Assembly: GCA_027365345.1 (NCBI GenBank)
Contig: DAHXNO010000111.1
Coordinates: 1 to 32,573, forward strand
Reading direction: 5' to 3'
Length of the DNA stretch: 32,573 bases
Source of the DNA: Granulicella sp.
Lineage (GTDB): Bacteria > Acidobacteriota > Terriglobia > Terriglobales > Acidobacteriaceae
Shown: in pieces, positions 23,714-31,014 of the stretch
Layout of the letters: every line of letters begins with the position of its first letter
Numbering within the stretch: the first letter of the stretch is position 1
Notes under the pieces: model-generated
The model's database searches: none
The model's input: only the letters and a program-made list of their open reading frames with translations
Told to the model about the DNA's origin: nothing
Made by a program: the position numbers and the translations under genes

Positions 23714-23851
23714 ATGAGCTATCTTTTCCCGCAGCAAGGCGGCCGGCTCGCTGAAAGATTCGCAGACGACCGTGGTTTGGCGGCTCTTTGCGCAGATGCC
23801 TTGCATCAGCTTTCGCTCGTTCACCAGAGCCATGCCAACGGACTGACTTGA
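23714..23851 (+). CDS. small hypothetical protein (45 aa) between nuoD and nuoE
   Basis: ATG 23714 has an excellent ribosome binding site (AGGAG six to seven bases upstream, in CGCAGGAGATGCC). The frame encodes 45 residues, beginning MSYLFPQQGGRLAERFADDR and ending in HANGLT, with no membrane segment; it is likely helical (ALCADALHQLSLVHQSH). Its TGA (23849-23851) overlaps the TTG start of the next gene as TTGA, which suggests translational coupling. It is not recognised. The gene lies inside the complex I cluster. Confidence 0.5.
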   Translation: MSYLFPQQGGRLAERFADDRGLAALCADALHQLSLVHQSHANGLT

Positions 23852-24165
23852 ACACTCGCCTCCACACCGAACTCTGGACATCCTGGGCGTCTCTGCTGCG
23901 CAGTTATGCGGCCGCCCACGGACTCACCAGCACCCACCACGCCATCGTCGAGGTGAGCGCAGAGCAGATCACTCTGCGGGTGAACGATCGATGGCTCCGA
24001 TTCATGCCCTGTGAGATGCAACACAGTGGAGAATCCCCAGCGCCGTTTATGCTCCATGAAGATGGAACAGTCACCTTTCACCCGCACCATCAACCCGCAG
24101 TCTCCCTCGCTATGGACATCGCCGCCGAACAGTTCGCCCGCCAGATGCTCACCGAAGCGGGCTAA
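23848..24165 (+). CDS. hypothetical protein (105 aa) between nuoD and nuoE
   Basis: The frame reads from TTG 23848, whose first bases overlap the stop of the 45-residue gene; it is open back to TTG 23788, but the overlapping start looks more natural. The product is about 105 residues with no membrane segment. It has a helical start (LHTELWTSWASLLRSYAAAH), a beta-like centre with IVEVSAEQITLRVNDRWLRF, and a helical end (SLAMDIAAEQFARQML). It is not recognised as any complex I subunit or assembly factor. Protein-like composition and operon position argue that it is real. It ends 57 bases before nuoE. Confidence 0.6.
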   Translation: MNTRLHTELWTSWASLLRSYAAAHGLTSTHHAIVEVSAEQITLRVNDRWLRFMPCEMQHSGESPAPFMLHEDGTVTFHPHHQPAVSLAMDIAAEQFARQMLTEAG

Positions 24166-29991: not shown

Positions 29992-30018
29992 CAGGCTCTG
30001 CAGATCAAGGATCATCCC

Positions 30019-30081
30019 ATGCGATTCATAGATAATCACGCCCCATCCACCCGCCGCACGCGAACTCTCAGGAATCGATAG
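30019..30081 (+). CDS. possible 20-codon ORF in the nuoH-nuoJ gap
   Basis: ATG 30019 is preceded by AAGGA at seven bases. The frame encodes a basic 20-residue peptide, starting MRFIDNHAPS and ending in an Arg/Thr-rich tail, and stops six bases before nuoJ. It is too short to judge from composition; it occupies the place where nuoI would be expected. It may be a coupling ORF or chance. Confidence 0.2.
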   Translation: MRFIDNHAPSTRRTRTLRNR

Positions 30082-30086
30082 CCCCG

Positions 30087-30593
30087 ATGGAAATCGTACT
30101 CTTCATCCTCTTCGGTCTCTTGGCGGTAGCAGCAGCCCTCAATCTGCTCTTCCAGCGCCATCCTATCAACTCTGCGCTCTCCCTGGTGGTCGTCATGATG
30201 TCGCTGGCGGTCCTCTACTGGTCTCTCGGCGCGGAGTTTCTCGCCGCCGCCCAGGTGATCGTCTACGCGGGCGCGATCATGGTCCTGTTCATCTTCGTCG
30301 TCATGCTGCTCAACGCCGGCGAGGAAGAGCGCACCCATGGCTCCAAGATTGCGTATATCGTCGGCATCCCCGGCGCTGGGGCCATCTTCTGCCTGCTCAG
30401 CTTTGCCTTTCTCTCCGAGCGCAGCCAGCTTGGATCCACAACACTGGGCGGTTATCTCTCCAGCGCTGTCTCCAACATCACGGAGATCTCCCACATCCTC
30501 TTCACCTCACTTCTGCTTCCCTTTGAAGTCACCTCCCTGCTGATTCTTGTCGCCATTCTCGGCGCGGTTGTGCTGGCGCGAAAGGAGCTTTAA
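30087..30593 (+). CDS. nuoJ: NADH-quinone oxidoreductase subunit J
   Basis: A 168-residue membrane subunit with five hydrophobic helices. The family segments are NPINSAL-like (HPINSALSLVVVMMSLAVLY) and GAEFLAAAQVIVYAGAIMVL, with FIFVVMLLNAG after it. The C-terminus LLILVAILGAVVLARKEL is typical. A gene for a 35-residue membrane peptide begins two bases after its stop and uses AAAGGAG, encoded by the last codons of nuoJ, as ribosome binding site. Confidence 0.96.
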   Translation: MEIVLFILFGLLAVAAALNLLFQRHPINSALSLVVVMMSLAVLYWSLGAEFLAAAQVIVYAGAIMVLFIFVVMLLNAGEEERTHGSKIAYIVGIPGAGAIFCLLSFAFLSERSQLGSTTLGGYLSSAVSNITEISHILFTSLLLPFEVTSLLILVAILGAVVLARKEL

Positions 30594-30595
30594 CG

Positions 30596-30703
30596 ATGAC
30601 CATCCCTTGCGGCGGCTTTGCCGTTCTCACCACAGCCTGGATCCTGCTGGTCCTCTGCAGCGTTGCCGGCGTTCTGGTTGTCCATAAGTTGCGGAGACCC
30701 TGA
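30596..30703 (+). CDS. 35-residue single-helix membrane peptide between nuoJ and nuoK
   Basis: ATG 30596 lies two bases after the nuoJ stop and has AAAGGAG nine bases upstream, one of the best ribosome binding sites in the window. The peptide begins [10 protein letters not shown], has one clear transmembrane segment of about 21 residues (centre [16 protein letters not shown]) and ends in a basic tail (HKLRRP), so the C-terminus should face the cytoplasm. Its stop is two bases before nuoK, whose ribosome binding site (GCGGAG) lies inside it. It is not a known core subunit; a small accessory subunit or assembly peptide of the membrane arm is inferred from position. Confidence 0.65.
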
Positions 30704-30705
30704 CC

Positions 30706-31014
30706 ATGATCACAGTTCCCATTGCCTATTACCTCATCCTGGCCGCCATCCTGTTCTGCATCGGCATTGCCGCCTTTCTGATCAAGCGCAACGTCATCAC
30801 CATCTTTATGTCCATTGAGCTGATGCTGAATGCGGTCAACCTGACCTTTGTCGCCTTTGCGCACATGTGGCGCCAGGTCTCGGGCCAGATCTTCGTCTTT
30901 TTCGTGATGGTGGTGGCCGCGGCAGAGGCGGCGGTCGGCCTGGCCATCATCATCGCCCTGTTCCGTGCGCGGCAGACGCTCAACGTCGACGAGGTCGACC
31001 TGCTCCGGAACTAG
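30706..31014 (+). CDS. nuoK: NADH-quinone oxidoreductase subunit K
   Basis: A 102-residue antiporter-like (MrpC-type) membrane subunit with three helices. It has [18 protein letters not shown]-like start, the conserved [20 protein letters not shown] with the helix glutamate, and [19 protein letters not shown] with the second functional glutamate. Length is normal. It follows the small membrane peptide by two bases and precedes nuoL by 68 bases, a spacer that holds a hairpin. Confidence 0.97.

Follow-up and report, generated by a model that had tools for sequence, protein, structure and literature searches.

CydX of cytochrome bd and KdpF of the Kdp system are one-helix accessory proteins of about 30-40 amino acids that are encoded with their partner subunits and are widely kept in their operons. 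One-helix small partners of respiratory enzymes are easily overlooked by gene finders. NdhP and NdhQ of cyanobacterial NDH-1, a relative of complex I, are described in the available part of one article as single-transmembrane peptides of less than 5 kDa, and the N-terminus of NdhP is predicted there to lie on the lumen side and its C-terminus in the cytoplasm (PMC4131877). Subunit IIa of the ba3-type cytochrome oxidases, according to the available text of another article, is a 34-residue one-helix protein in Thermus; its gene is part of the enzyme's operon and is not always annotated. It belongs to a recognisable family and has been shown biochemically in the enzyme of two bacteria (PMC3128077).

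The frame analysed here, X, lies between the complex I genes nuoJ and nuoK and, unlike CydX and KdpF, varies among close relatives or is lacking in some of them. X is similar to NdhP and NdhQ in size and topology as these are given in the available text, a likeness of description rather than of sequence alignment; unlike them, X is a candidate subunit only, is absent from 70 of 103 genomes, and its profile has no match in the PDB. The inserts at nuoJ-nuoK also differ from subunit IIa, as far as the available part of its description goes, because they form no single recognisable family and their site is the nuo operon. Compared with the intergenic microproteins of Enterobacteriaceae, as presented in the accessible portion of that study (PMC11188072), many different microproteins are found here at one fixed junction of a respiratory operon. 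Among the literature matches listed, no title or beginning of an abstract deals with a small gene in the nuoJ-nuoK setting.

The small frame and its surroundings

In the window, that is, the whole analysed stretch of 32,573 nucleotides, X occupies positions 30596-30703 of the plus strand and runs from ATG to TGA with 35 codons for 35 amino acids. It is preceded by nuoJ (30087..30593, plus strand), which encodes the complex I membrane subunit J (PF00499, E 3.7e-37), and followed by nuoK (30706..31014, plus strand), which encodes membrane subunit K (PF00420, E 3.3e-29, and the NCBIfam NuoK model). With the end of the nuoJ stop codon at 30593 and the nuoK start at 30706, a gap of 2 bases is left on either flank, exactly as an earlier note on this DNA had described. 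The Shine-Dalgarno-like motif AAAGGAG named in that note is present in the last codons of nuoJ (30581..30587, plus strand), and 8 bases, rather than the nine that were given, separate it from the ATG of X.

A single helix was predicted for the window peptide by AlphaFold2 from the single sequence (residues 6-33, mean pLDDT 87.7), in agreement with the hydrophobic helix and basic C-terminal tail proposed earlier. Under the positive-inside rule, by which a basic tail would put the C-terminus in the cytoplasm, X is predicted to have its N-terminus outside and its basic C-terminus in the cytoplasm. Searches with X gave no match in Pfam up to E 10, in NCBIfam up to 0.001 or in PHROGs up to 0.1, and a six-member X profile gave none among PDB sequences up to 10; kinship with known complex I subunits was not detected in Pfam, NCBIfam or the PDB, in searches that are weak with queries of 35 residues. 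When the window peptide was searched against 28 genomes of its genus, only six junction copies, and nothing elsewhere, fell below E 0.01.

Several features of other nuo genes were also observed. The interval between nuoH and nuoJ in the window (29992-30086) contains no nuoI, and a single NuoI match above the cut-off was obtained, on another contig (G000:C152:20968-21366, L310). No other nuo gene was recognised by eye in 3.4 kb of that contig, and the match is followed by an ORF that, also by eye, resembles a homocysteine methyltransferase. A second, divergent NuoK (45% identical), encoded at G000:C64:2247-2546, has its own NuoJ with no insert between. A TTG-started frame of 125 amino acids is located between nuoD and nuoE (23788-24165).

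Inserts at the nuoJ-nuoK junction in related genomes

NuoK was searched in relatives, the genus, the family, two other genera and a named genome collection, and tblastn with NuoJ and NuoK as queries served to extract the junctions. The counts exclude second complex I copies and repeats (L064-L073) as well as junctions with NuoK below 70% identity. Of 172 distinct junctions (NuoK at least 70% identical), 37 have spacers of more than 40 bases, and 33 of these belong to three genera, namely the genus of the window (g1), g51 and g48; the long spacers outside these genera (L036, L038, L039 and L103) contain no hydrophobic spanning ORF. Carriers elsewhere may be missed, because outside the three genera mainly junctions without a straight NuoJ-to-NuoK alignment were fetched and no more than a sample of the family was covered (300 genomes, 278 with a match, the junctions being drawn from among the matches listed).

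With one operon counted per genome, a long nuoJ-nuoK spacer is present in 33 of 103 genomes of the three genera. In g1, where 25 of the 28 genomes searched have this operon, the insert is found in 16 and lacking in 9; the corresponding numbers are 15 and 45 of 60 in g51 (62 searched) and 2 and 16 of 18 in g48 (19 searched). The junction of Terriglobus roseus DSM 18391 is identical to that of one g48 genome. In the 70 insert-free genomes the spacer is 29 bases or less, which indicates that complex I can do without X.

The inserts have a recurring layout. One ORF spans the distance from nuoJ to nuoK in 32 of the 33 long spacers, where 3.7 would be expected from dinucleotide shuffles, and 31 of these spanning ORFs contain a hydrophobic stretch, against a shuffle expectation of 0.09; L218, in which the stretch is weak, departs from the layout. 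In the 32 inserts, the remaining two sense frames yield 2 spanning ORFs and no hydrophobic one, and the median maximal hydropathy is 2.11 in frame as opposed to 0.66 and -0.24 in these frames. Assignment of a single helix is based on AlphaFold2 for the window peptide and on hydropathy only for the other inserts. The last 10 residues carry a net positive charge in 30 of 32 peptides. The possibility that the basic tail is a by-product of the nuoK Shine-Dalgarno site proved partly true, as masking of the codons that overlap this site lowers the median charge of the last 12 residues from 3 to 2, but these residues stay positive in 27 of 32 peptides. Pfam matches of four inserts (E 0.002-0.005), which are below the curated cut-offs, were not believed.

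Some inserts have other forms. L303 (G374), which is without a single spanning ORF and was left out of the per-peptide counts, contains two tandem ORFs of 36 and 50 amino acids, the second with a hydrophobic stretch and a basic tail. L261 (G356) has an insert of 85 amino acids spanning nuoJ to nuoK, with about three hydrophobic stretches by eye, and the spanning inserts of L184 (G290) and L295 (G334), of 61 and 64 amino acids, have two each by the same inspection.

The AAAGGAG motif before X is part of Lys-Glu codons of nuoJ, and AAGGAG falls within 20 bases of the nuoJ end in 62 of 70 insert-free genomes, where nuoK directly follows it, as well as in 30 of 33 carriers. The motif is therefore not independent evidence for X, and the ribosome binding site that the earlier note had cited in its support carries little weight. 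Carriers have in addition a ribosome site for nuoK that is located within the terminal part of the small gene. The median duplex energy is -8.5 kcal/mol at this site and -8.0 kcal/mol before the small gene, and it is -7.9 kcal/mol before nuoK at 106 insert-free junctions; 28 of 32 X starts are preceded by an anti-Shine-Dalgarno duplex of -7.7 kcal/mol or better. The 32 X genes start -4 to +5 bases from the nuoJ stop, and 31 of them stop -4 to +3 bases from the nuoK start, the remaining one being at 14. The X genes lie within the complex I operon with coupling-type spacing and Shine-Dalgarno sites.

The neighbouring junctions were used as a control at 72 loci, one per genome, from 72 of the 103 genomes, with spacers of more than 60 bases defined as long. 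At nuoJ-nuoK (72 usable), all 28 long spacers contain a spanning ORF, which is hydrophobic in 27, whereas nuoH-nuoJ (69 usable) has 63 long spacers with 10 spanning ORFs, none hydrophobic, and nuoK-nuoL (72 usable) has 15 long spacers with 2 spanning ORFs, one hydrophobic. The hydrophobic spanning ORF at nuoK-nuoL, of 35 amino acids, is that of L013, which also carries a nuoJ-nuoK insert.

Codon-level constraint on X

The frame of X is kept by five relatives with 69-83% identity. One of the five, L005 (G010), is otherwise 71% identical to the window peptide but has frame-shifted C-terminal residues and an end that overlaps nuoK, which may be real or an assembly error; the codon tests were run without it. 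Lower dN than dS was obtained in every one of 16 pairs, from five groups of which two merge into one similarity cluster (for example, 0.13/0.41, 0.14/1.15 and 0.21/2.41). Relative to nuoJ, X has a several-fold higher dN/dS in the group of the window and in two further groups; in the remaining two, the dN/dS of X amounts to about 0.8 to 2 times the nuoJ value.

Differences are also unevenly distributed over codon positions. In ungapped stretches of six branch-independent pairs, 45, 24 and 84 differences fall on the first, second and third positions (binomial p=3.5e-8), so that the third position accounts for 84 of 153. When five members of the six-member group of the window are compared, the variable columns number 15, 8 and 23 (p 0.014). 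Under a null in which the same substitutions are redistributed, 8 of 11 pair tests reached P<0.05, and the three that were not significant gave P 0.06, 0.12 and 0.23; some of the 11 pairs have branches in common. The mean GC contents by codon position, 0.55/0.45/0.68 for X and 0.60/0.39/0.81 for nuoJ, are coding-like in X but more weakly so.

X thus displays the codon-level purifying selection expected of a selected intergenic microprotein, and the ORF at 30596-30703 is almost certainly a selected gene. The earlier note is supported in its description of an unannotated single-helix frame with a basic C-terminal tail that fits the operon, and relatives show codon-level constraint on this frame.

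Relatedness of the inserts and competing explanations

At z 5, the 32 peptides fall into 20 sequence clusters, the largest with 6 and 5 members. Peptide identity, computed over the longer peptide of a pair, is uncoupled from distance in a codon-aware nuoJ/nuoK tree: L013 and L018 share 24% identity at a distance of 0.10 and L020 and L024 16% at 0.18, whereas L001 and L004 (0.21) retain 83% and L180 and L215 (0.25) 66%. This uncoupling is better explained by turnover, whether through replacement or through repeated birth, than by steady divergence. The carrier L013 and the insert-free L014 are sisters about 0.03 apart, which is compatible with gain or loss. On this tree the presence of the insert changes state 23 times, and if the tree is taken as fully resolved, a single gain needs 32 losses and a gain-only history 26 gains; these counts are rough, because the 143 rows include some second cuts of the same junction, the bootstrap had yet to converge and 36 inner branches lack resolution. 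Given the 20 clusters, the insert-free close relatives and the absence of hydrophobic ORFs from the nuoH-nuoJ spacers, nuoJ-nuoK looks like a turnover site of lineage-specific one-helix microproteins, and the sequence comparison suggests that tiny membrane-protein genes have been repeatedly gained, lost or replaced at this junction.

Copying of the NuoJ tail or the NuoK head was rejected as a general origin of X. Similarity to these segments looked raised against plain shuffles (mean z 1.77 and 1.19, respectively), but the mean z is 0.42 and 0.18 with helix-preserving shuffles, under which one of 32 peptides (L018, with the NuoJ tail) reaches 3.2.

X is probably a real gene for a single-pass microprotein of 35 amino acids, one of a lineage-specific set that comes and goes at nuoJ-nuoK in the three related genera. 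As for translation of X and action on complex I, we infer that ribosomes moving from nuoJ to nuoK would translate X, and that its helix would be inserted beside newly made NuoJ and NuoK, where, in lineages that have retained X, it may help, tune or stabilise the membrane arm or the assembly of this arm; such an effect on the enzyme would be non-essential. It is possible, and put forward only tentatively, that the junction is a recurrent site of birth or replacement of one-helix proteins that are co-translated with complex I and plug into it. The proposal of a new supernumerary complex I subunit is supported in so far as a constrained single-helix frame resides in the operon; the frame is not fixed, however, since it is not kept wherever this form of complex I occurs (33 of 103 genomes, 16 of 25 in the window's genus) and its peptides form 20 clusters among 32.

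The main rival, which we regard as unlikely, is that selection acts on an open frame as such, which carries membrane-docked ribosomes from nuoJ to nuoK, while the hydrophobic peptide is harmless and its sequence hardly matters. Many dissimilar sequences at one site, the strict spacing with mostly good Shine-Dalgarno sites at both starts, and the 70 of 103 genomes that do without an insert would fit a filler of this type. The amino-acid-level constraint within clusters speaks against it, as do the nuoH-nuoJ spacers, 53 of 63 long ones being without a spanning ORF, from which the operon seems to tolerate untranslated gaps.

Next in order, and rather improbable, is a single accessory subunit gene that the three genera inherited from their common ancestor and that evolved very fast and was lost many times, so that dissimilarity would reflect divergence. 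Length and layout are common to most members, and marginal similarity exists between peptides of different genera (z 4.9 for L013-L180 and L025-L267, 4.8 for L013-L215) and within genera (z 6.9 for L024-L025, 5.9 for L180-L265). A z near 5 is no proof of kinship, with about one chance pair in 496 by a rough rather than a computed estimate, yet these values (z 4.8-6.9) leave room for an old kinship between some of the clusters. Such an ancestry would need the 32 losses of the fully resolved tree and has to contend with peptides that are dissimilar at short tree distances and kept at longer ones. That X is a chance ORF without function is very improbable, because its patchy presence and the lack of a family match for the window peptide in Pfam, NCBIfam, PHROGs and the PDB are opposed by the shuffle controls, the codon-position excess, dN below dS and the neighbouring junctions.

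The preferred reading, a lineage-specific set of microproteins that comes and goes at nuoJ-nuoK, would have different consequences depending on whether the peptides touch complex I. If they do, they would amount to numerous naturally occurring, lineage-specific modulators of the membrane arm, and if recurrent recruitment is true, the junction would present, as a natural series, new genes that dock onto a universal respiratory machine. If there is no contact with complex I, close genomes in which the slot is empty, filled or differently filled would still make the birth and selection of membrane proteins directly testable.
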